From positions 1-40,631 of the forward strand of contig NZ_NCSM01000062.1 of assembly GCF_002224125.1 (NCBI RefSeq): a stretch of DNA of 40,631 bases, read 5' to 3'. Shown here piece by piece: positions 6,206 to 38,023 of the stretch (position 1 is its first letter; each line of letters begins with the position of its first letter). The notes below the pieces were generated by a model. That model saw nothing but the letters and a program-made list of their open reading frames with translations. It did not search any database and was not told the DNA's origin. A program made the translations under genes and the position numbers. Origin of the DNA: Streptomyces sp. NBS 14/10 (GTDB lineage: Bacteria; Actinomycetota; Actinomycetes; Streptomycetales; Streptomycetaceae).

Positions 6206-7570
6206 TCAGTGGGCCGAGCCGGTGGCGTCGTCCGCCACACCGCCGGCGGTGTCACCAGCGCCGTCACCGGTGCTGTCACCGGCGACGTCGTCGGCGCTCT
6301 CGGTCGCGTCGTCGACGGTCGAGGTCGGGTCGGCGGTCACCGGGTCGGAAGGATCAGAAGGGTCGGACGGGTCAGACGGGTCGGAAGGGGGTGGTGGCGG
6401 AGGAGGGGGCGCCGGGACGTTGTCAGTGCCCGTGCCCCCGTCCCCTTTTCCCTGGTCGCCCCCACCGCCGTTGTCGTTGTCGCCGCCGCCGGAGTCGCCG
6501 CCCTGGCCGCTGTCGCCGTTCCCGCCGCTGTCGCCGCTGTTGTCGCCGCTGCTGTCGCCGTTGTCACTGTTGTTGTCGCCGCTGCGCGGGGTCCCCTCGC
6601 TGGTGCCCCCGTTGTTGACGACCGCGACGCAGTAGCCGTGGATCCCGGTCGCGCTGCCCGCCGCCTTCTCCAGCTTGCTCAGGTCCTTGGCGTCGACGGC
6701 CTCGGCATCGCCGCTCTCCGCCGCCAGATAGTCACGGCAGACGTTGAGCGCCCAGCCTCCCGCGTTCGAGCCCGGCGCCGAGGGGTCGTCCTTGCCGTTG
6801 TTCCCCTCGCCCTTGCCGTCCGTGCCACCCTCGGCCTCATGGCCCTGGCCGGGTGACGTCGACGAGCCGCCGGGGCCGTACCAGGCCCCGCCGCTGGCAT
6901 CGTTGTCGGTCGATCCGCCGGTTCCGGGCGTCGTGCCGTCCGGGGAGATGTTGGGCTCGGCCGACTTGCCGGTGGTGTCGGCCGGCATGCTCACCGAGGG
7001 GCCCGGCGCGCTGTCCTGCGGTCCGAAAGGCAGCACGCCCGCGGCCGTCGCGACCGCGAATCCGCTGAGCGCGCAGCCGGCCAGCGCGGCGACCAGTCCC
7101 ATGTGCAGTGGTCTGCGCAGCCGCGCCTGACCGTTCGACGGGCCCGCCATCCGGAACGTCCCGCGGGGTCTCGAGCCGCCGTCGGCGCCGAACCGTACGC
7201 CGCGCAGCGCCGCCCGGCCGACCCGGCCTGCCTTGCCGGCCCGCGCCGCCTCCTGCTCCGCCTGCTCGGCCCGTACCGCGCGGAACGCGGCCAGCGCGGC
7301 CTCCTCGCCCGGCAGGGGCTTCCCGTCGGCGGTGCCGTCCGCCGCTGTCGGGCGGGACATCTCGGCCACGGCGTCGAGTACGGCGGCCAACCGCTCCGCT
7401 TCGCTCCGCGACTGGCTCGACCAGCCGTTCTGCCCGGCGGTCCGTCCGGCGGTCTGCCAGCCGTTCTGCCCGGCTTCGAGGTCGCTGGGTTGCACCCAGG
7501 CCGGCTCACCACGAAGCAACCGCTCCGCCGCATCGTCATCCAGCCAGCTGTAGCGGTGGTCGTCGGCCAT
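6206..7570 (-). CDS. Single-pass membrane protein with acidic Gly/Asp-rich exterior (sigma-factor partner)
   Basis: 454 aa from the ATG at 7570, sharing one base with the sigma-factor stop (TGATG). The cytoplasmic part (about 1-155) starts with HRYSWLDDDAAERLLRGEP and carries the conserved-looking AERLAAVLDAVAEMSRP segment. One membrane helix follows (MGLVAALAGCALSGFAVATA). The rest is a long low-complexity exterior: a small folded patch with two Cys (NVCRDYLAAESGDAEAVD to GIHGYCVAVV), then runs of Asp, Gly, Asn and Ser, a poly-Pro stretch and SDPSDP repeats. Cotranscription and topology suggest a regulator or anti-sigma-like partner of the ECF factor. No zinc anti-sigma motif is visible, so that role is inference. 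Confidence 0.75.
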   Translation of the reverse strand: MADDHRYSWLDDDAAERLLRGEPAWVQPSDLEAGQNGWQTAGRTAGQNGWSSQSRSEAERLAAVLDAVAEMSRPTAADGTADGKPLPGEEAALAAFRAVRAEQAEQEAARAGKAGRVGRAALRGVRFGADGGSRPRGTFRMAGPSNGQARLRRPLHMGLVAALAGCALSGFAVATAAGVLPFGPQDSAPGPSVSMPADTTGKSAEPNISPDGTTPGTGGSTDNDASGGAWYGPGGSSTSPGQGHEAEGGTDGKGEGNNGKDDPSAPGSNAGGWALNVCRDYLAAESGDAEAVDAKDLSKLEKAAGSATGIHGYCVAVVNNGGTSEGTPRSGDNNSDNGDSSGDNSGDSGGNGDSGQGGDSGGGDNDNGGGGDQGKGDGGTGTDNVPAPPPPPPPPSDPSDPSDPSDPSDPVTADPTSTVDDATESADDVAGDSTGDGAGDTAGGVADDATGSAH

Positions 7571-8304
7571 CACATGTCCTTCTGCGTCGGAGCGCCGGAA
7601 TCCGTCACACCAGCGGACCTCGCGGTCCCTCTGCGTGACTCCCGCTGCAGCGGGATCCCGTCCAGCACCCCTTGTTCGGCCCCGTTCCCCGCGTCGAGCA
7701 GGTCGGCCAGACGCCGCAGGCCCCGGTGGGCGGCGGTGCGCACCGCTCCGGGGCGTTTGCCGAGCACCGCGGCCGCGCTCTTGGCGTCGAGCCCGAGGAC
7801 CACCCGCAACACCACCGCCTCGGCCTGGTCGTGCGGCAGCTGGGCGACGAGCCCGAGGGCTCGGCCGGTGCCCAGCGCCTCCAGCGCCTGGTCCGCGGTG
7901 TCCGCGTCGGACGCCCGGCCCTCCAGTTCGGTCTCGTCGCCGCCGATCGCCGGGCGCCGACCGCGCATCCGTATGTGGTCGAGCGCCCGGTTCCGGGCTA
8001 TCCGCGCGGCCCAGCCGCGGAAGCGGTCGGCGTCGCCGCTGAACCTGGCCAGGTCGCGGGCTATCTGCAGCCACGCCTCGGAGGTGATGTCCTCCGCGTC
8101 GCCGTCGCCGACCAGCGTCCGTACGTACCCGAGGAGGCGAGGGTGGACCGCCCGGTACACGGTCCGGAAAGCGGTCTCGTCTCCGTCCTGCGCCGCGCAC
8201 ACCGCGGCGGTCAGTTCCGCGTCGTCCCCCTGCACGCCCTCTACCTGCCCCACTCGGAGAAACGGAGGTCCAACGATGCCGTAGCCGAGGCTAGCCGTGG
8301 CCAT
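7570..8304 (-). CDS. ECF RNA polymerase sigma factor
   Basis: Up to 244 aa from the ATG at 8304, which overlaps the DUF4328 gene's end by 14 nt. A GTG at 8235 with AGAGGG just upstream is an alternative, giving 221 aa. Region 2 is seen as DETAFRTVYRAVHPRLLGYV, then GDAEDITSEAWLQIARDLAR and RNRALDHIRMRGR. Region 4 is LPHDQAEAVVLRVVLGLDAKSAAAVLGKRPGAVRTAAHRGLRRL. It directs RNA polymerase to a small regulon. The stop overlaps the start of the membrane protein gene downstream, which strongly suggests a coupled sigma/partner operon. The inducing signal cannot be told. Confidence 0.92.
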   Translation of the reverse strand: MATASLGYGIVGPPFLRVGQVEGVQGDDAELTAAVCAAQDGDETAFRTVYRAVHPRLLGYVRTLVGDGDAEDITSEAWLQIARDLARFSGDADRFRGWAARIARNRALDHIRMRGRRPAIGGDETELEGRASDADTADQALEALGTGRALGLVAQLPHDQAEAVVLRVVLGLDAKSAAAVLGKRPGAVRTAAHRGLRRLADLLDAGNGAEQGVLDGIPLQRESRRGTARSAGVTDSGAPTQKDM

Positions 8305-9316
8305 AGGGCGGGTACTGCTGGTTCGCCGGACCGGGCGGGCCGTAGGGAGGTGTGGGAGGCGTGCCGTAGGGCGGGGCAGGCGTGCCGTACGGAGCGGCCG
8401 GCGGCGTGCCATAGGCCGGGGCGACGCCCCCGACCTGCGGCGGAAGCGAGGCGCGCTGCTCCTGCATCGCGGTGATCTGGCGGACGAGCAGCAGCGCCAG
8501 GATGGCCGCGGCGATGAAGACGACGACCGCGAACATATCGAGCGCGAGGATGCCGTGCAGGTCGTCGAGGTCGCTCCTGGCCTCCGAAAGGCTCGGCTGG
8601 TAGCTGTCGCTCTCGACCTTGCTCCGCAGCGTGTTGTAGCGGATCGTGCCGACGGCGTTGGCGACAAGGCCGACGATCCAGGTCACCCACCATCCGTTGA
8701 GCAGTCCGCGGCGCACGTTGTGCGGCCCCTGGGGGGAGCTGGCGCGCCAGATGTCGTTGGCGATCTGCTTGGGGAACCAGAGGTTGACGACCGGGGTGAA
8801 CCAGGAGCCCGCGGCCCAGCCGCTGCTGAACCGGTGCTGCCCGGGGGCGAACACCTCGGCGTTCAGCCGCAGCCGGCGGAACCAGATGGCCCACACGACG
8901 ACGATCGCCACCATGAGGCAGAAGTAGATGGCCGCCGCGCCCGTATAGAAGTCGTCGGCGTCGTCGAGGTCCTTCACGGACACGAACGAGCCGTCGAGCA
9001 TGTCCCCGATGACGCCGTACTGGTCACCACGCGCCACGAGAAGAAGGATGAGGGAAGGGATCGCCACACCGAAGAGCACCACCAGTGTGGTCGACAGCCC
9101 GCGCCGCAGATCCACGCCTCCGGCCGGCATCCCCATACCCGGGGCGGCCGGGTAGGCGAGCGGCGGCGCGGCCGGTATGGGCCCCTGCTGGGGAGGGGCA
9201 TACGGCGGAGGCTGCTGGGGTGGCTGCTGATCGAGCTGTTGCTGGTAGGTCCCGCATGCTGCGCAGCGCCCGTCGGGGCCGACGGCCACGGCGCGGCAGT
9301 TCCCGCACGGATACAT
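8291..9316 (-). CDS. DUF4328 membrane protein with N-terminal zinc ribbon
   Basis: 341 aa from the ATG at 9316. It begins with a two-CxxC zinc ribbon (YPCGNCRAVAVGPDGRCAACG). A Pro/Gln-rich linker leads to a DUF4328-type membrane core: about four helices with the signatures FSSGWAAGSWFTPVVNLWFP and NGWWVTWIVGLV. A Pro/Tyr/Gly-rich C-terminal tail with repeated APYGTP units follows. DUF4328 proteins are common in Streptomyces and have no assigned function. The 3' end overlaps the likely sigma-factor start. Upstream, 9317-9557 is non-coding and I see no motif in it beyond a possible leader. Confidence 0.85.
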   Translation of the reverse strand: MYPCGNCRAVAVGPDGRCAACGTYQQQLDQQPPQQPPPYAPPQQGPIPAAPPLAYPAAPGMGMPAGGVDLRRGLSTTLVVLFGVAIPSLILLLVARGDQYGVIGDMLDGSFVSVKDLDDADDFYTGAAAIYFCLMVAIVVVWAIWFRRLRLNAEVFAPGQHRFSSGWAAGSWFTPVVNLWFPKQIANDIWRASSPQGPHNVRRGLLNGWWVTWIVGLVANAVGTIRYNTLRSKVESDSYQPSLSEARSDLDDLHGILALDMFAVVVFIAAAILALLLVRQITAMQEQRASLPPQVGGVAPAYGTPPAAPYGTPAPPYGTPPTPPYGPPGPANQQYPPYGHG

Positions 9317-15041: not shown

Positions 15042-15814
15042 TGAGCACCCCGACGCTTGACAAGCCGGCCGAGGCTCCGGAGGCGGCCGAGGCCAACGCT
15101 TCGCACCTGGTCACGGTCACCTTCCGGATCCGCCGGTTCAACCCGGAGGTCGCGGCCGATGCGTTCTGGGAGGACTTCCAGATCGACATCGACCCCAAGG
15201 AGCGCGTCCTCGACGGGCTTCACAAGATCAAGTGGGATCTGGACGGCACCCTGACCTTCCGCCGCTCCTGCGCCCACGGCATCTGCGGCTCCGACGCCAT
15301 GCGGATCAACGGCCGCAACCGGCTCGCCTGCAAGACGCTGATCAAGGACATCAACCCTGAGAAGCCCATCACGGTCGAGGCCATCAAGGGCCTCACGGTC
15401 CTCAAGGACCTGGTCGTGGACATGGAGCCGTTCTTCCAGGCGTACCGCGATGTGATGCCCTTCCTGATCACCACGGGCAACGAGCCGACGCGCGAGCGCC
15501 TGCAGTCCGCCGAGGACCGCGAGCGCTTCGACGACACCACCAAGTGCATCCTGTGCGCCGCGTGCACCTCCTCGTGCCCGGTGTTCTGGAACGACGGCCA
15601 GTACTTCGGCCCGGCGGCGATCGTCAACGCGCACCGCTTCATCTTCGACTCGCGCGACGAGGGCGGTGAGCAGCGCCTGGAGATCCTGAACGACAAGGAC
15701 GGCGTCTGGCGCTGCCGCACCACCTTCAACTGCACGGAGGCCTGCCCGCGTGGCATCGAGGTCACCAAGGCCATCCAGGAGGTGAAGCGCGCGCTGATCA
15801 CGCGGCGCTTCTGA
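15041..15814 (+). CDS. sdhB: Succinate dehydrogenase iron-sulfur subunit
   Basis: 257 aa. It carries electrons from FAD to quinone through three clusters. The 2Fe-2S ligands lie in RRSCAHGICGSDAMRI and RLAC. The 4Fe-4S ligands lie in CILCAACTSSCPVF. The 3Fe-4S ligands include the Cys in FNCTEACPRGIEV. Translationally coupled to sdhA by TGATG. A hairpin terminator follows at 15851. Confidence 0.97.
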   Translation: MSTPTLDKPAEAPEAAEANASHLVTVTFRIRRFNPEVAADAFWEDFQIDIDPKERVLDGLHKIKWDLDGTLTFRRSCAHGICGSDAMRINGRNRLACKTLIKDINPEKPITVEAIKGLTVLKDLVVDMEPFFQAYRDVMPFLITTGNEPTRERLQSAEDRERFDDTTKCILCAACTSSCPVFWNDGQYFGPAAIVNAHRFIFDSRDEGGEQRLEILNDKDGVWRCRTTFNCTEACPRGIEVTKAIQEVKRALITRRF

Positions 15815-15850: not shown

Positions 15851-15890
15851 CGAGGGCTCCGCCTCCCATTCGTGGGTGGCGGGGCCCTCG
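15851..15890. terminator. Terminator after sdhB
   Basis: CGAGGGCTCCGCC (15851-15863) pairs with GGCGGGGCCCTCG (15878-15890) with one mismatch and a 14-nt loop. It strongly resembles the hairpin at 17838-17879 on the far side of the ATPase/DUF4276 pair. Just after it, GTCTTTCAG (15892-15900) is repeated inverted at 15924-15932, immediately before the ATPase start, and might be an operator. Confidence 0.75.
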
Positions 15891-15939: not shown

Positions 15940-17205
15940 ATGCCTCGAAAGAGTCCGTTTCGCCTGTCCCGGGTGCGGCTGCGTGAGTACCGCAGCATCG
16001 CCGCATGCGATGTGCGGCTGGGGCCACTGACCGTGCTCGTGGGGCCGAACGGCTCAGGGAAGAGTAACTTCCTCGACGCGCTGCGCCTGGTGTCCGAGGC
16101 GTTGCACGGCTCTTTGGAACAAGCGGTACGTACACGCGGAGGGATGGCCGAGATCCGGCGCCGCCAGGCAGGCCATAACCTCAAGTACCCGGACGACACC
16201 GCGTTTGTCGAGATCATTCTCGAGTGGGCCGACGACCACAGCAGTGGCGTATACGGTCTGGAGCTGGCTGACGCCGCAGGTCACAGCGCCCGGGTACCCC
16301 ATGAATGGGCCCGCGTGTGGTGGGGCCCGCAGGACGGCGAGGAAGATCGTCCCGCCGACGCCGCCTTCGACGTCTATGAAGGCGGCGCCGTCGAATCCAC
16401 CGAGGAGATCATGCCGCCCCCGGCGCAGCATGCGCTCTATCTCGTCCGGGCAGCGGGCGTGGACGCTTTCCGGGCGCTTTTCGACGGCCTGAGCCGGATC
16501 AATGTGTACAGCATCGACCCTGAGACCATGCGTCGGCCTCTCCCCCCAGCACAAGGGGAACAACTCGAGCGGGACGGAGCCAATATCGCAGCCGTGCTGC
16601 ATCGGTTGGAACCGTTTGAGCAGCCGAGCAGATACAGGGAAGGGCCCAAGGTCCGTATCGAGGAGTATCTGCGGCTGATCGTCCCTGGCCTGGAGATGGT
16701 ACGCCCCACGCATGTGGGCGCCTGGGACAGTCTGGATTTCATACAGGAGTCGGCTCGCGGCGAGGCCGAGGAGTTTGGGGAGAGCAGCCTGGAGCGGTCG
16801 CAGCGGACCTTCTCAGCGCTCTCGGTATCCGACGGGACGCTCCGCGCGCTCGGCGTTCTCACCGCGCTCTTCTCCGACACAGACGGCCCGTACAGTCCGA
16901 TCGGCATCGAAGAGCCCGAGAACACCCTGCACCCAGCCGCGGCCGGAGTGCTCGTCGACGCGTTCCAGGAAGCCGCCGAACAACGCCAGATCATCATCAC
17001 CAGCCACAGCCCCGAACTCCTCGATCACCCTGCCTTCGGTCCCGAGCAACTGCGCGCGGTGCGGCAGGAGGATGGCGACACCGTGATCGACAAGGTGGAC
17101 CGGGCGACGGCCGAGTCACTGTCCGATCGCCTGTTCACGGCGGGTGAACTGCTGCGCGCAGATCAACTCCAGCCCACTCCGCCGCTGGAGGACGACGGAC
17201 AGTGA
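15940..17205 (+). CDS. AAA/ABC-type ATPase (RecF/OLD-like), candidate defence gene
   Basis: 421 aa from the ATG at 15940 with TGAGG upstream. The N-terminal half-domain has RLREYRSIAACDVRLGPLTV followed by Walker A GPNGSGKS (residues 35-42), the pattern of SMC/RecF/OLD ATPases (AAA_21/AAA_15). The signature-like LSVSDGTLR, Walker B IGIEEPENTLHP and the switch His in IITSHSPELLD lie in the last third. The middle has no coiled coil long enough for SMC function. The stop overlaps the start of the DUF4276 gene as GTGA, so the two make one unit. Known relatives pair with nuclease or TOPRIM partners in phage defence; that role here is inference. Confidence 0.88.
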   Translation: MPRKSPFRLSRVRLREYRSIAACDVRLGPLTVLVGPNGSGKSNFLDALRLVSEALHGSLEQAVRTRGGMAEIRRRQAGHNLKYPDDTAFVEIILEWADDHSSGVYGLELADAAGHSARVPHEWARVWWGPQDGEEDRPADAAFDVYEGGAVESTEEIMPPPAQHALYLVRAAGVDAFRALFDGLSRINVYSIDPETMRRPLPPAQGEQLERDGANIAAVLHRLEPFEQPSRYREGPKVRIEEYLRLIVPGLEMVRPTHVGAWDSLDFIQESARGEAEEFGESSLERSQRTFSALSVSDGTLRALGVLTALFSDTDGPYSPIGIEEPENTLHPAAAGVLVDAFQEAAEQRQIIITSHSPELLDHPAFGPEQLRAVRQEDGDTVIDKVDRATAESLSDRLFTAGELLRADQLQPTPPLEDDGQ

Positions 17206-17801
17206 GCCAATACACGATCGCCTCCGTCGTCGAGGGCTACGGCGAGGTTCAGTCCCTTCCGGTTCTGATCCCGCGCATCGCGTACGAGCTCCTCGGCTTC
17301 AGCGGCGGATTACGTGTCGAAAAGCCCCACCGCGCCGCGCAGTCGGATATGCGCGATGCTGCCTGCCTATCCCGTTATCTACGGTTGCAGGCGCTCAAGG
17401 TCTCCCAGCGAGGTGGCGAAGGCGGCGTCCTGGTCCTGCGCGACGGCGACGACAAGCAGGTTTCCTGCCCGGTGGAGCTGGCTCGGCTGCTCGCCCCGGC
17501 GGGCGCGGGGCTACCTGTGCAAGTCGAGGTGGTCATCGCCTGCCGCGAGTACGAGGCCTGGTTCCTCGCCGCTGTCGAGTCGCTGCGTGCGCACAAGTCG
17601 GTACGCGACGATGCGACCAGCCCGCCCGAGCCCGAAGCGCGCCGCGACGCCAAGCGGCAGCTTGAAGCCCTGATGAACGAGAACTACAAACCAACCTTGC
17701 ACCAGGCCGCCTTCAGCCACTTCCTCGACCTGGACACGGCCTGGGCGACGAGCCGCTCCTTCCGTCGGTTGGTACATGGCGTTGAGCTTCTGCTCACTTG
17801 A
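17202..17801 (+). CDS. DUF4276 (TOPRIM-like) protein, partner of the ATPase
   Basis: 199 aa from the GTG at 17202 within a GTGA overlap. The N-terminus has SVVEGYGEVQSLPVLI, with Glu 11 placed like the TOPRIM glutamate. VLVLRDGDDK (Asp 81, Asp 83, Asp 84) supplies the DxD metal motif, and ACREYEAWFLA adds two more acidic residues. This matches DUF4276, which I regard as TOPRIM-like. If active it could cut nucleic acid in a metal-dependent way, gated by the ATPase. Codon 37 (17310-17312) is TTA, so full translation should require the bldA tRNA. Codon use is a little less GC-biased than in sdh. Function is unproven. Confidence 0.8.
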   Translation: MSQYTIASVVEGYGEVQSLPVLIPRIAYELLGFSGGLRVEKPHRAAQSDMRDAACLSRYLRLQALKVSQRGGEGGVLVLRDGDDKQVSCPVELARLLAPAGAGLPVQVEVVIACREYEAWFLAAVESLRAHKSVRDDATSPPEPEARRDAKRQLEALMNENYKPTLHQAAFSHFLDLDTAWATSRSFRRLVHGVELLLT

Positions 17802-17837: not shown

Positions 17838-17879
17838 GCCGAGGGCCCCGCTTCCCACTCGAGAAGCGGGGCCCTCGGC
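17838..17879. terminator. 17-bp perfect terminator hairpin after the DUF4276 gene
   Basis: GCCGAGGGCCCCGCTTC (17838-17854) pairs perfectly with 17863-17879 around an 8-nt loop. Sequence and loop resemble the post-sdhB hairpin at 15851-15890, as if one terminator had been duplicated on either side of the two-gene island. Confidence 0.85.
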
Positions 17880-34468: not shown

Positions 34469-35812
34469 TCAGCTTCCGAGTAGTTCGACGAGGTGATCGT
34501 CGAGGTCGGCGACGAAGTCCTCACGCCGCCAGGGCCGCAGTTCCTTGCGTGCCTGCCGCAGCCGCAGCGCAGGCACACGCCCGCCGGTACTGGCGGCGGA
34601 GTCGACGCAGTTGTGCAGAAGATCCGCGGCTTGCTCAGGCGCGTCCAGCCGGATGCAGGCCAGGGCCTGATCGGTGGAGACGATCGCCCGCTGTACCCGC
34701 TCACGCGGTGTGCCGAGAGCCGCCACGCTATCGGCGAAGAAGTCGTGAGCGACCGCCGCGTCTCCGACGTACAGCTCACACAGCCCCTCGAAGCCGCGCA
34801 GGTGGTCCGGGCTGAAGCTGGCCGGCGCCGGATCGCCCTCGCCATTGCGGTCGAGGTCGTACCAGGCAAGCGACAGCGCAGTCCGCGCGTGCCGCTCGGC
34901 CCCCGCCCGGGCGGCGACCTCGGCTTGTAACCCATGCGCTCGGGCCCGCACGCGGACGCTGTCGCCCGTACGCGCATCACGCACCGCGGCGTCGACCAAC
35001 CCGCGGGCCGCTTCGATACCGGGGGCGGAGTACAGCGTGACCAAGGCGTGGCTCATGTGAACGACGGCCCGCCGCCACCGAGCGTCGAGTTGTCCGGCCG
35101 TAGCCGTGGCGGCCGCGTACAGCGCGTGGGAGGCCTGGTCGTCCCGGGTCTCGAACGCCAGCCGCCCGCCGAGGGTGTATGCCTGAACCGCGACCGTGCG
35201 CAGCTCAGGCAGCAGGGGGGCGGGGGCATCTCCGGTCAGGAGCCGCCGGCAGGACTCGATCACGGGGGCGAGCAGGAGTTGGAGCCGAGCGAAGGGCAGC
35301 GAGCCGACGTGCGCGTTGACGTCACCCACGGCCGTCCGTAACCCGTCGAGCAGGACCTCATCGACGCGCGTCGGATCGGTGAGCGCGGCGGCCATGGACA
35401 GTCGGGTTGCGGGCCCGAGCAGAGCGAGCAGACCGGTTCCGTCATCAGTGGCCGTACGCATCAACAGCGCGCGCAGATCGCTCAGCCGGGCCTCCGCCTC
35501 TCCCAGGTGGGCCAGTGCGTCAAGCAGTTCGGCGAAGTCGCTGCCCGGCCCAAGTGCGATGTGCCCGTCGGCACCTCGGGCGTAAAGGTGCGCCAGCAGA
35601 AGCTGATACCGGTCGCTGGGGAGGATGGGGCGCGTCGCGCTCTCCCACCGGGCCGCCGATCGCTGCACACTCGAGGCAGATGAGTCGAGAGGCTGGCCAA
35701 GGCGGCGCGCTGTGGCGATGAGCGCCCGTGAGGTTTCGGCCAGAGACAATCCCCGGGCCTTCCGAAGGGACTTGAACGCAGCCGCACCAAGGAGCATTTC
35801 GCGCGTGCTCAT
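34469..35812 (-). CDS. Helix-turn-helix/TPR-like regulator with two TTA codons
   Basis: 447 aa from the ATG at 35812 with GAGG upstream. The N-terminal about 80 residues look like a divergent XRE helix-turn-helix (FKSLRKARGLSLAETSRAL, ARWESATRP). The rest is all-helical and Ala/Leu-rich with TPR-like pairs (RARAHGLQAEVAARAGAERHARTALSLAW; ERVQRAIVSTDQALACIRLDAPEQAADLLHNCV). Such proteins are frequent Streptomyces-specific regulators, often beside small paired genes. TTA codons occur at 35341-35339 (codon 158) and 34930-34928 (codon 295), so synthesis should depend on bldA tRNA. Target and ligand are unknown. It ends in the accessory block next to glyA. Confidence 0.75.
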   Translation of the reverse strand: MSTREMLLGAAAFKSLRKARGLSLAETSRALIATARRLGQPLDSSASSVQRSAARWESATRPILPSDRYQLLLAHLYARGADGHIALGPGSDFAELLDALAHLGEAEARLSDLRALLMRTATDDGTGLLALLGPATRLSMAAALTDPTRVDEVLLDGLRTAVGDVNAHVGSLPFARLQLLLAPVIESCRRLLTGDAPAPLLPELRTVAVQAYTLGGRLAFETRDDQASHALYAAATATAGQLDARWRRAVVHMSHALVTLYSAPGIEAARGLVDAAVRDARTGDSVRVRARAHGLQAEVAARAGAERHARTALSLAWYDLDRNGEGDPAPASFSPDHLRGFEGLCELYVGDAAVAHDFFADSVAALGTPRERVQRAIVSTDQALACIRLDAPEQAADLLHNCVDSAASTGGRVPALRLRQARKELRPWRREDFVADLDDHLVELLGS

Positions 35813-35837
35813 GGCCTCATCATGCCGGTGATCCGCG

Positions 35838-36296
35838 TCACACGGGCACGATCAGATGAGGTTTCCCCTGTTCGGCACCGTAGTTGATGGTTTGCCAGGT
35901 ACCGGAAGTACCCTGCGGGCCAGCGAGGGGGAACCCGATGACCATGTGGGAGTGGTCGACCATCCAGCGGTTCCGGGCGTGGAATGCGGGCGCATCGAGC
36001 TGGTCGGCGCGCAATTCGACGATCTCCGTGATGCGGTTGCGGCTGCGGGTGATGGCTTGCTGCGCCTCAGCGGGCTGCTGCTGAACGGTACCGGGTACGA
36101 CGATCGTGATCTGTGAGGATGCGTTGCCCGCCAGCCAGAGCAGGGCGAGGGAGTCGATGCCCGTGGCCCCGCCGAGGTAGAAGCTCACGTTGGGGTCTAC
36201 GAATGGGCCGAGGTAGTCGGCGAACAGTTCGGCGTAGCTCGCGAGATCGCGATGCGCTGTCGACCGCGTACCGGTGATGGCCACAGCCCGGGTCAT
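35838..36296 (-). CDS. SLOG/DprA-like Rossmann-fold protein
   Basis: 152 aa from the ATG at 36296 with GGAGTGG upstream. The fold begins AVAITGTRST and has the glycine motif FYLGGATGIDSLALLWLAGN, then ITIVVPGTVQQQPAEAQ, ELRA and AFHARNRWMVDHSHMVIGFP, and ends GTWQTINYGAEQGKPHLIVPV. This matches the SLOG superfamily (DprA/LOG relatives), nucleotide-sensing proteins that also occur in conflict systems. Whether it binds DNA or a nucleotide is unknown. It lies 26 nt upstream of the TPR regulator on the same strand and probably shares its transcript. Divergent to the 36360 gene. Confidence 0.7.
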   Translation of the reverse strand: MTRAVAITGTRSTAHRDLASYAELFADYLGPFVDPNVSFYLGGATGIDSLALLWLAGNASSQITIVVPGTVQQQPAEAQQAITRSRNRITEIVELRADQLDAPAFHARNRWMVDHSHMVIGFPLAGPQGTSGTWQTINYGAEQGKPHLIVPV

Positions 36297-36359
36297 GATC
36301 CACTCCGTGTCCTAGGTTGTCATATCCCGCCGCGGTTCGCGGTGCGGTGATATCGATGC

Positions 36360-36821
36360 ATGGACGCATCCCGTTGCCTCGACCTGGCTGAACGCCTCAA
36401 AGCCTACGGACCCGAACCGTGGGCACCGCCAAGCGGCCGTGGCACGGAGCTGCAGCCCGCCGGCCGTTCTTGGGACGTCGTGCGCGTTCCCCTCTCCATC
36501 GGCATCGGCAAACGCACTCTCGACCTGCTGGGCGAGGCGACGGGCGCGGTTATCGAGAACCCCTTCGACAAGGTCTTCTACTGGTTGATCGCGCCCGGCT
36601 CAGCCGCCGGGTGGGACATGAGTGCGCTGCCCAGCGTCCAGGTCTGGGGAGCGACCGCCTATATCGAGGTGCCCTCCGTCGACTCCCGTAGGGGACCCGG
36701 GGTGCGCTGGCGCGTACCGCCCCGGGACGACCGGCACCTCACCGACCCGACGGTTCTCCTCGCCGCGCTGAAGATCGCCACCAGCGCGGCGCTCGGCCCA
36801 CGCGAGGAGGCCCACCGGTGA
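36360..36821 (+). CDS. Conserved hypothetical protein of the accessory block
   Basis: 153 aa; the start at 36360 has no ribosome site and may be leaderless. I see no known catalytic motif. It has alternating strand and helix: SWDVVRVPLSIGIGKRTLDLLGE, VIENPFDKVFYWLIAPGSAAGWDM, VQVWGATAYIEVPSV, and GVRWRVPPRDDRHLTDPTVLLAALKIA. The layout recalls the short primase-like (prim-pol N-terminal) proteins common beside Streptomyces TPR regulators, but the resemblance is weak. Its stop overlaps the next start as GTGA. The leader holds nested inverted repeats (ATATC at 36322 and GATAT at 36349; CCGCG/CGCGG inside) that may bind a regulator. Confidence 0.7.
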   Translation: MDASRCLDLAERLKAYGPEPWAPPSGRGTELQPAGRSWDVVRVPLSIGIGKRTLDLLGEATGAVIENPFDKVFYWLIAPGSAAGWDMSALPSVQVWGATAYIEVPSVDSRRGPGVRWRVPPRDDRHLTDPTVLLAALKIATSAALGPREEAHR

Positions 36822-37003
36822 CCCAGTGCTGCTATCGCTGCGACAAGCCCACCCGCGAACCGATCACCGTGCTGCGCGCATCCGCTTCCGGGCCCGGCTG
36901 CCTGCGCCACCTGTGCCCGGAGTGCAACCGCCGACGACCGCACCCCGACGCCGACCTCTACACGGTGCTCGTCACCCTGCAGCGCGAGCGGCAGACGAGG
37001 TGA
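36818..37003 (+). CDS. Small zinc-ribbon protein
   Basis: 61 aa from a GTG at 36818 in a GTGA overlap with the gene before. CCYRCDK near the start and CLRHLCPEC in the middle give a four-Cys zinc ribbon. The C-terminal 20 residues are helical (YTVLVTLQRERQTR). No function is known; a nucleic-acid or protein docking module is possible. Overlaps the next gene by GTGA too. Confidence 0.7.
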   Translation: MTQCCYRCDKPTREPITVLRASASGPGCLRHLCPECNRRRPHPDADLYTVLVTLQRERQTR

Positions 37004-37206
37004 CCGTCCCCGCCAGCGCCCGGCGCCTATCGCCGTACTGCGCGCTGTACACCGCCGAACCCGACACCACACCCGCCGAGATCCACGCCTTCTGCAAGGG
37101 GCCGGGCGAAGTTCGGCTGAAGCCGGCACCACCCGCGACCCGCGGACTGCTCCTCTTCACCGTCCGGTGCGACCGCGACTGCCACAAGAAGGCGGACGCC
37201 ACCTAG
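37000..37206 (+). CDS. Small Cys-containing protein, third of a coupled trio
   Basis: 68 aa from a GTG at 37000 that overlaps the upstream stop. Four Cys and two His (PYCALY, IHAFCKG, VRCDRDCHKKAD) could bind zinc. Codon use is normal for the genome. The three genes from 36360 to 37206 are linked by two GTGA overlaps and should be made in equal amounts, perhaps as a complex. No homologue recognised. Confidence 0.6.
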   Translation: MTVPASARRLSPYCALYTAEPDTTPAEIHAFCKGPGEVRLKPAPPATRGLLLFTVRCDRDCHKKADAT

Positions 37207-37210
37207 ACCG

Positions 37211-37281
37211 GTGGGCCGCGCGGCGGCCCACCCCACCCTCGTCCCGGCCTCCCGCTTGCAGGCCAGTGGGCCGGGACGAGG
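37211..37281. terminator. Two strong hairpins after the coupled trio
   Basis: GTGGGCCGC (37211-37219) pairs with 37223-37231. CCTCGTCCCGGCC (37237-37249) then pairs perfectly with GGCCGGGACGAGG (37269-37281) across a 19-nt loop. Together they make a likely terminator and insulate the small gene at 37339. Confidence 0.7.
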
Positions 37282-37338
37282 ACCGCGCAACCAGCGCGGG
37301 GACACCCCTGCGCAACTCAACAACTCACAGGAGGCCCT

Positions 37339-37467
37339 GTGCGATTACAGCACGCCGTCCACCGCCACGACCCCGACGACCGCGACACCATGCCGGACAC
37401 CGACACCCCGACACCCGGCGGCCAGACGCCCGGCGACTCGGACGACGGGCGCCAGTACGCGCGCTGA
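37339..37467 (+). CDS. Candidate 42-residue protein with early TTA codon
   Basis: GTG start at 37339 with a strong AGGAGG-type site at 37329-37334, 4 nt upstream. The third codon (37345-37347) is TTA, so translation should wait for bldA tRNA. The peptide is very polar (His, Asp, Arg, then TPTPGGQTPGDSDDGRQYAR). It is bracketed by two 13-bp hairpins, like a separate small transcription unit. No similarity is recognised; the call rests on ribosome site, frame and isolation. Confidence 0.5.
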   Translation: MRLQHAVHRHDPDDRDTMPDTDTPTPGGQTPGDSDDGRQYAR

Positions 37468-37474
37468 CCAGACC

Positions 37475-37517
37475 GCGGCCCCGTCCTCAGACCGCCCCCG
37501 CCGCAGGACGGGGCCGC
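37475..37517. terminator. 13-bp perfect hairpin
   Basis: GCGGCCCCGTCCT (37475-37487) pairs with AGGACGGGGCCGC (37505-37517), loop 17 nt. It starts 8 nt after the small gene's stop and ends 9 nt before the next ribosome site, so it could terminate one and control access to the other. Confidence 0.65.
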
Positions 37518-37537
37518 TCCCCCACGCAGGAGCCACC

Positions 37538-38023
37538 ATGACAACACCGCCCACACCTGATCACTGGCACTGCTACCGCTGGACGGGGGAACGCCGAACC
37601 TATGACGATGAGTCCGCACGTCGGCCGCCCCATCTCGTCGTCCAGAACATGTCGCCCCAGGAGTGGAAGCAGATCGCAGCCGCCAGCCCTACCTTCATGG
37701 CAAGTGATGTACCGCCCCTGGAGGTAGCGCACTGGCTGCTACGCCCAGCCAGAACGATCAAGGCGACCTTCAAAGAGCCGGAGAAAGCCTCAGCCTGGTA
37801 CCAAGACCAGGTCACCGAACTGACTCCCACCTTCATGACCCACCACGACAAAAACCCCACCCGACAAGCCGAACGCTTCGCCGCCGCCGACGACCGGCTC
37901 AGCTGGGGCGGAGACGTCGTCGGCGGCTGGTATCTGCGAGGCACCGGATTCGCCTCAGTGCAGTTGGTCGCCTGCAGCGCGAACCGGATCCGCCCGACCA
38001 TCCCCTGCCCGACACTCCCCTAA
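37538..38023 (+). CDS. Hypothetical protein
   Basis: 161 aa from the ATG at 37538 with GCAGGAG at 37526-37532. The sequence is rich in Trp, His and Pro (DHWHCYRWTGERRTYDDES, EVAHWLLRPARTIKATF, YLRGTGFASVQLVAC) and looks like a small globular alpha/beta protein. I recognise no domain. Its TAA stop lies inside the first of the IS-end-like repeats (38019-38040), so its last residues may have been altered by that insertion. Confidence 0.6.
   Translation: MTTPPTPDHWHCYRWTGERRTYDDESARRPPHLVVQNMSPQEWKQIAAASPTFMASDVPPLEVAHWLLRPARTIKATFKEPEKASAWYQDQVTELTPTFMTHHDKNPTRQAERFAAADDRLSWGGDVVGGWYLRGTGFASVQLVACSANRIRPTIPCPTLP

Follow-up and report, generated by a model that had tools for sequence, protein, structure and literature searches.

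Several ATPase-Toprim systems have been described that provide a frame for the locus studied here. In PARIS, AriB is kept bound by an AriA hexamer; the system is described as activated by anti-restriction proteins, and AriB set free by a phage protein cleaves tRNA (PMC12409363). GajA is described as responding to ATP depletion (PMC12796447). OLD-type ATP-binding cassette (ABC) ATPases coupled to TOPRIM nucleases are described as backup effectors in BREX and related loci, in a paper that acknowledges previous studies of ABC-ATPase conflict systems (PMC12839542). Hma-embedded candidates, or HECs (PMC10855318), form a further group. HEC-04, an ATPase-Toprim fusion, is said to act on T4 and T5 (PMC12111858), several HECs, HEC-06 among them, are credited with antiviral activity (PMC12988326), and for HEC-01 one paper reports detection in Desulfovibrio piger (PMC12724379). 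Here we analyze a two-gene pair on a 40,631-nucleotide stretch of DNA from Streptomyces sp. NBS 14/10 (contig NZ_NCSM01000062.1, hereafter the window), which we assign to HEC-01 and whose second protein, DUF4276, is predicted to be a Toprim nuclease.

The pair belongs to the candidate defense system HEC-01

The pair consists of two plus-strand open reading frames (ORFs) that overlap through a GTGA sequence, the GTG start of the second lying within the TGA stop of the first. A preliminary description, made from the sequence alone, had reported these overlapping ORFs together with a set of motifs, and all of them are present on direct reading, including ITSHSPELLD at residues 353–362 of the ATPase and DGDD at residues 81–84 of DUF4276 (remaining features in Table 1). 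Pfam assigns the first protein to AAA_21 (E 1.2e-27) and AAA_15 and the second to DUF4276 (E 2.1e-10), all above curated cut-offs. In PADLOC, the ATPase matches HEC-01A (PDLC04178, E 4.1e-135) over residues 1–415, and DUF4276 matches HEC-01B (PDLC04196, E 1.8e-60). Weaker matches of the ATPase are to AriA (1.3e-28), AbiLi (6.4e-21), Old (3.6e-18) and GajA (1.4e-16). Because the HEC-01A and HEC-01B scores are well ahead of these, the pair belongs, by sequence models, to the already catalogued HEC-01, a candidate defense system of PADLOC-DB 2.0.0. Both components, the HEC-01A ATPase and its DUF4276 partner HEC-01B, are found side by side, adjacency being what we take to be a requirement of a HEC-01 call.

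Thus, the locus adds a useful member and test case to HEC-01 and does not represent a new kind of system. The preliminary description had proposed a candidate anti-phage pair; the OLD/Toprim two-gene module stands, but it already had a name, and its role in defense is a presumed one. No test of HEC-01 turned up in the literature searched, which did not extend to the MADS paper or the guilt-by-embedding preprint, and a search for DUF4276 by name found nothing. Novelty is also low because links between OLD-ABC ATPases and TOPRIM nucleases have been described in general (PMC12839542), although DUF4276 is not named in the available text of that paper. The HEC-01 effector can now be described as a probable two-metal Toprim nuclease, as predicted below.

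The pair was also compared with named systems. It resembles PARIS (AriA/AriB, Class 4 OLD) in having a separate Toprim protein, as is AriB (PMC10568477). However, neither AriB nor AbiLii is among the 15 PADLOC families that match the window DUF4276 at E up to 1, and with HEC-01 scoring far higher, PARIS and AbiL were ruled out as identities by the sequence models. Likeness to the Class 1 and 2 OLD proteins (TsOLD, BpOLD, XccOLD, GajA) lies in the combination of an ABC ATPase with a Toprim domain bearing an E, E, D, D, (T/E)-x-E, K set, but the OLD proteins of Classes 1–3 are single chains whereas the window encodes two polypeptides. HEC-04/IbfA likewise combines an ABC ATPase with Toprim, but as one fused protein. 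Gabija differs in its UvrD-like helicase gene; the neighbors of the window pair are sdhB and a VanZ/RDD gene. Of the earlier proposal that the pair is related to OLD, PARIS and AbiL, the OLD-type coupling of ATPase to Toprim therefore holds, while membership in PARIS, AbiL or the one-chain OLD classes does not. Within HEC-01, the window copy has the same two overlapping components, but it is free-standing after sdhB, outside Hma, whereas Hma genes flank or adjoin the pair in some relatives.

DUF4276 is predicted to be a two-metal Toprim nuclease

Residue conservation was assessed over 87 rows, comprising 86 loci from which both ORFs were extracted and the window. A Foldseek search with the predicted DUF4276 fold returned Class 2 OLD Toprim domains as its top five matches, and the acidic residues and lysine expected of an OLD-family two-metal Toprim site are conserved (Table 1). 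E11, E15, D81, D83, E116, E118 and K151 are the candidate counterparts of E400, E404, D455, D457, T506, E508 and K562 of OLD (structure 6nk8), a glutamate thus standing here for T506; the match was made from residue order and local spacing and not from superposed coordinates. In BpOLD, single changes at the metal site were tolerated, and triple changes were needed. By sequence, a search of solved structures with a DUF4276 profile found nothing, and one with the single sequence gave chance-level matches only. As modeled, DUF4276 very likely has a Toprim fold with a metal site, and its conserved residues suggest that the effector is probably a two-metal Toprim nuclease, from which we infer its nuclease activity. 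This agrees with the TOPRIM-like second protein first proposed, against which the lack of a Toprim fold would have counted; the fold is predicted and the two-metal set is conserved. DUF4276 thereby moves from unknown function to a prediction that can be tested, namely that it is a two-metal Toprim nuclease whose partner is an ABC-type sensor.

The partner protein retains the Walker A, signature and Walker B motifs of an OLD-family ABC-type ATPase, and it resembles the heads of Rad50 and SMC proteins. Its proposed identity as an OLD/ABC-type ATPase is borne out by Pfam AAA_21, by the PADLOC models and by the conserved motifs.

Table 1. Features of the HEC-01 pair and its flanks in the window
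Feature	Position	Strand	Evidence or conservation
HEC-01A, OLD/RecF-type ABC ATPase, predicted sensor/regulator, 421 amino acids, ATG start	15940..17205	+	ORF, Pfam, PADLOC E 4.1e-135
Walker A GPNGSGKS, residues 35–42	16042..16065	+	K41 in 86/87 rows, gap in the other
ABC signature-like LSVSD, residues 294–298	16819..16833	+	S297 87/87, D298 73/87
Walker B/D-loop region IEEPENTLHP, residues 323–332	16906..16935	+	E324 85/87, E325 86/87, E327 87/87
GTGA start/stop overlap	17202..17205	+	Sequence; NTGA in 70/92 loci
HEC-01B, DUF4276, predicted Toprim two-metal nuclease effector, 199 amino acids, GTG start	17202..17801	+	ORF, Pfam, PADLOC E 1.8e-60
Toprim EGYGE, candidate metal ligands E11 and E15	17232..17246	+	E11 87/87; E15 = 78 E + 9 D
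Toprim DxD, D81-G-D83, candidate metal ligands	17442..17450	+	D81 86/87 (one E); D83 = 75 D + 9 E + 3 other
E116-Y-E118, candidate second-metal ligands	17547..17555	+	Both 87/87
K151, candidate counterpart of OLD K562 (by order only, spacing differs)	17652..17654	+	87/87
Hairpin 3' of sdhB, possible terminator	15851..15890	unspecified	Hairpin search
Hairpin 3' of the pair, of the type directly following sdhB in three relatives	17840..17877	unspecified	Hairpin search

The ATPase and DUF4276 form a fixed two-gene unit

A search of genome contigs gave 278 stretches encoding a DUF4276 relative, and the counts for named loci refer to the best 80 of these. The ATPase lies immediately 5' of DUF4276 (estimated gap ≤164 bases) at 78 of the 80, which upholds the claim of a two-gene unit with one gene order; the two exceptions are L043, without an ATPase match, and L066, with only 70 bases of upstream sequence. 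Record titles of the named loci include Actinomycetota, Pseudomonadota, Acidobacteriota, Verrucomicrobiota, Planctomycetota, Chloroflexota and Elusimicrobiota. At 70 of the 92 loci where both genes matched, the start codon, in the DUF4276 frame, overlaps the ATPase stop as NTGA, and no spacing fits a fusion at any of the 86 loci with both ORFs extracted. The ATPase and DUF4276 distances of the 87 pairs are correlated (Pearson 0.72, reached in 0 of 999 permutations; Spearman 0.46), although shared host descent may account for part of this. The same order is found at 15 of 19 wide Streptomyces loci; those left out lacked a tblastn match to DUF4276 (L037–L039) or to the ATPase (L036), and in L037 the ATPase match stops 113 bases before a weak DUF4276 match.

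Some relatives lie among restriction, Hma and DISARM genes

Three Streptomyces loci (L027, L028 and L030) have type I methyltransferase genes on one side of the pair and a type I restriction-type helicase gene on the other; in L030 (4445–13282) these are HsdM-HsdS, including the specificity subunit, and an HsdR-like gene. The same methyltransferase and restriction genes recur at 90–96% identity in L031 and L033, which brings the count to 5 of 15 Streptomyces loci. The gap between hsdS and hsdR is described as a known site for embedded defense genes, holding in four genomes an AAA-like ATPase and a putative RNA-binding protein (PMC12255303).

Hma and DISARM genes adjoin other copies. The gene order in L048 is HmaB, pair, HmaC; the gene after the pair is HmaC in L055, L075 and L112, HmaB in L105 and DrmD in L059, and a DrmMI-type methyltransferase precedes the pair in L089, these loci having been chosen for confirmation and not at random. 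Across the named loci, 140 immediate neighbors were scanned in two sets, in which one protein can match several models. Among the matches listed for the first 69 (25 of 97 families) are HmaC (3), HmaB (2), HmaA (2) and DrmD (2), and among those listed for the other 71 (25 of 69 families) are HmaB (3), DrmMI (3) and HmaC (2); the majority of the 140 match no Hma or DISARM model listed. The 95 control proteins showed no Hma or DISARM model among the matches listed (25 of 47 families, ordered by member count), beyond which a single-member family of that kind could lie. These controls were 95 of 125 ORFs from 14 stretches of the same Streptomyces genomes, at distances of approximately 23–100 kb, and the named loci span many phyla.

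A PADLOC kinase match (PD-T4-6/mad6) beside some relatives, such as L028, was discounted as defense because two of the 95 controls match the same models. The window ATPase itself scores 103.1 bits to NF047739 MADS3, against a cut-off of 420, and 67.7 bits to PADLOC mad3, a model also matched by generic Streptomyces ATPases. Control matches to mad3 (3/95) and GajB (1/95) indicate that such generic matches mean little. In one close relative (L025:6224-7750), the gene directly 3' of the pair and in the same orientation encodes a 508-amino-acid HNH-domain protein.

The pair is patchily distributed and may be inserted at sdhB

DUF4276 matches were found in 19 of 295 genomes of the same genus, the window's own included, and in all 15 of 15 relatives examined sdhB was present while the 19-kb stretch around it lacked both the pair and the VanZ gene (E up to 1e-10). 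The pair is therefore neither syntenic nor near-universal in Streptomyces, a combination that would have spoken against the preliminary description. None of the stretches L021–L119 gave an sdhB or VanZ match. Among the six closest relatives, one neighbor match is shared, between L022 and L023 (30%), indicating that each pair occupies a different place. Both proteins of that match are helix-turn-helix (HTH)-DUF5753 regulators, also found at the restriction loci; the family is abundant in Streptomyces and was not adopted as a third component. The GC content at third codon positions (GC3) of the pair is 0.77–0.81, compared with a mean of 0.89 for the 28 window ORFs, although several other window ORFs are equally low.

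Relatives also occur on three Streptomyces plasmid records, and the surroundings were read for two. On the NBC_00723 plasmid a transposase and a conjugal transfer gene lie near the pair, and on the NBC_00445 plasmid (L191:8754-15566) the pair is followed ∼1.1 kb later by an annotated AAA family ATPase and ATP-dependent helicase, an arrangement that is Gabija-like by annotation only. The same pair is found at L193:18814-20567 in MT835995.1, filed as a bacteriophage (a human fecal scaffold, unverified; stretch GC 0.714), a record that may be bacterial.

Two similar hairpins bracket the window pair. In three relatives (G013, G007 and G001), a hairpin whose arms are identical to those of the downstream one lies 23–48 bases after the sdhB match; this arm pattern occurs one to four times per genome in the eight relatives searched and three times in the window's genome. 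The hairpins fit, without proving, insertion of the pair at the sdhB terminator. A direct repeat of the window pair's flanks scored 13, equal to the shuffle maximum of 13, so that an insertion scar is suggestive only. Among 20 other loci, only L044 (23 versus 12) and, barely, L021 (14 versus 13) exceeded their shuffles. The L044 repeat, an imperfect 89-base direct repeat around the pair in Streptomonospora nanhaiensis (locus about 6819–8585), is a possible trace of insertion.

A proposed split OLD-like defense module and its alternatives

Taken as a whole, it is reasonably likely that the pair is an accessory, horizontally mobile anti-phage module of the HEC-01 type, built like a split OLD nuclease. 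HEC-01A would form an ATP-dependent assembly that senses infection and keeps the small Toprim protein DUF4276 (HEC-01B) inactive. Upon a trigger, HEC-01A would activate or release DUF4276, which through E11/E15, D81/D83, E116/E118 and K151 would cut nucleic acid and stop phage growth, probably by abortive infection. We infer the assembly, the trigger, the substrate and defense itself. The separate genes and small Toprim protein favor a PARIS-like mechanism, but the closest solved folds to DUF4276 are those of DNA nucleases; by analogy with AriB and RNase M5, the chance that RNA rather than DNA is the substrate is slightly better than even. If correct, HEC-01 would join PARIS as a second, widespread family of split OLD systems.

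Two results weaken the neighborhood evidence for defense. PADLOC at 1e-15 matched none of the 58 neighbors of the six closest relatives (L021–L026), which, with 10 chosen others, were the ORFs run out of 126 neighbors at 15 Streptomyces loci; guilt by association thus applies to some members of the family but not to the close clade. In addition, the window copy is located between sdhB and the VanZ/RDD gene, and only some more distant relatives adjoin defense genes.

The same two proteins could instead cut DNA, with the ATPase sensing ATP levels as in GajA and Class 1 OLD and no PARIS-like release of an RNase. The nearest solved Toprim folds are indeed the DNA-cutting Class 2 OLD domains, whose metal residues DUF4276 matches in order, and GajA responds to ATP depletion (PMC12796447). 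However, the Toprim protein is a separate 199-residue chain as in PARIS (PMC10568477) and unlike GajA, no helicase gene adjoins the window pair, and a metal site of this kind is also described for RNase M5 and AriB. We consider this reading rather unlikely. We consider it improbable that the pair is a plasmid- or genome-stabilizing toxin-antitoxin system, in which the ATPase neutralizes a DUF4276 toxin and phage defense is at most a side effect. The strict, mostly overlapping two-gene unit would suit such a system, as would its patchy distribution, its presence on three Streptomyces plasmid records and the position of the close clade outside recognized defense islands, but HsdM/S-HsdR, Hma and DISARM genes are associated with some relatives and the ATPase keeps its active-site motifs. 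Least probable is a housekeeping pair for DNA or RNA processing, in repair or the cell cycle: Cran1 is a precedent, the ATPase resembles Rad50/SMC heads and the window copy adjoins core sdh genes, yet DUF4276 occurs in so few same-genus genomes, its neighborhood is not conserved and the GC3 of the pair is lower than that of most window ORFs.

An extension of the anti-phage reading, which we regard as speculative and doubtful, is that HEC-01 guards restriction. The ATPase would sense when a phage inhibits a restriction complex, either type I or Hma-type, and would then release DUF4276, which would cleave host tRNA as a minimal RNase M5-like Toprim ribonuclease. The HsdM/HsdS-HsdR copies would then be ancestral, and the free-standing Streptomyces copies would have moved to dispersed sites such as the sdhB terminator, guarding the cell from there. 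If the predicted nuclease and sensor roles are correct, the pairs inside type I restriction loci of some Streptomyces offer a direct test of the idea that such pairs guard restriction systems.

Additional features of the locus

The pair is preceded by the sdhCDAB operon, which ends at 15814, and followed by the gene for the VanZ/RDD membrane protein. ARAGORN found no tRNA gene in the whole window, a promoter scan found no promoter, and a terminator scan gave a single minus-strand site within DUF4276, with no excess over shuffles. A second stretch of low-GC3 ORFs at window 34469–38023 (0.785–0.837), with one DNA_processg_A match and three ORFs without a Pfam match at 1e-5, is possibly another acquired segment. 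Lastly, the DUF4276 gene contains a single TTA leucine codon at residue 37 (window 17310–17312). TTA codons are rare in Streptomyces and depend on the bldA tRNA, and expression of DUF4276 could be tied to development.
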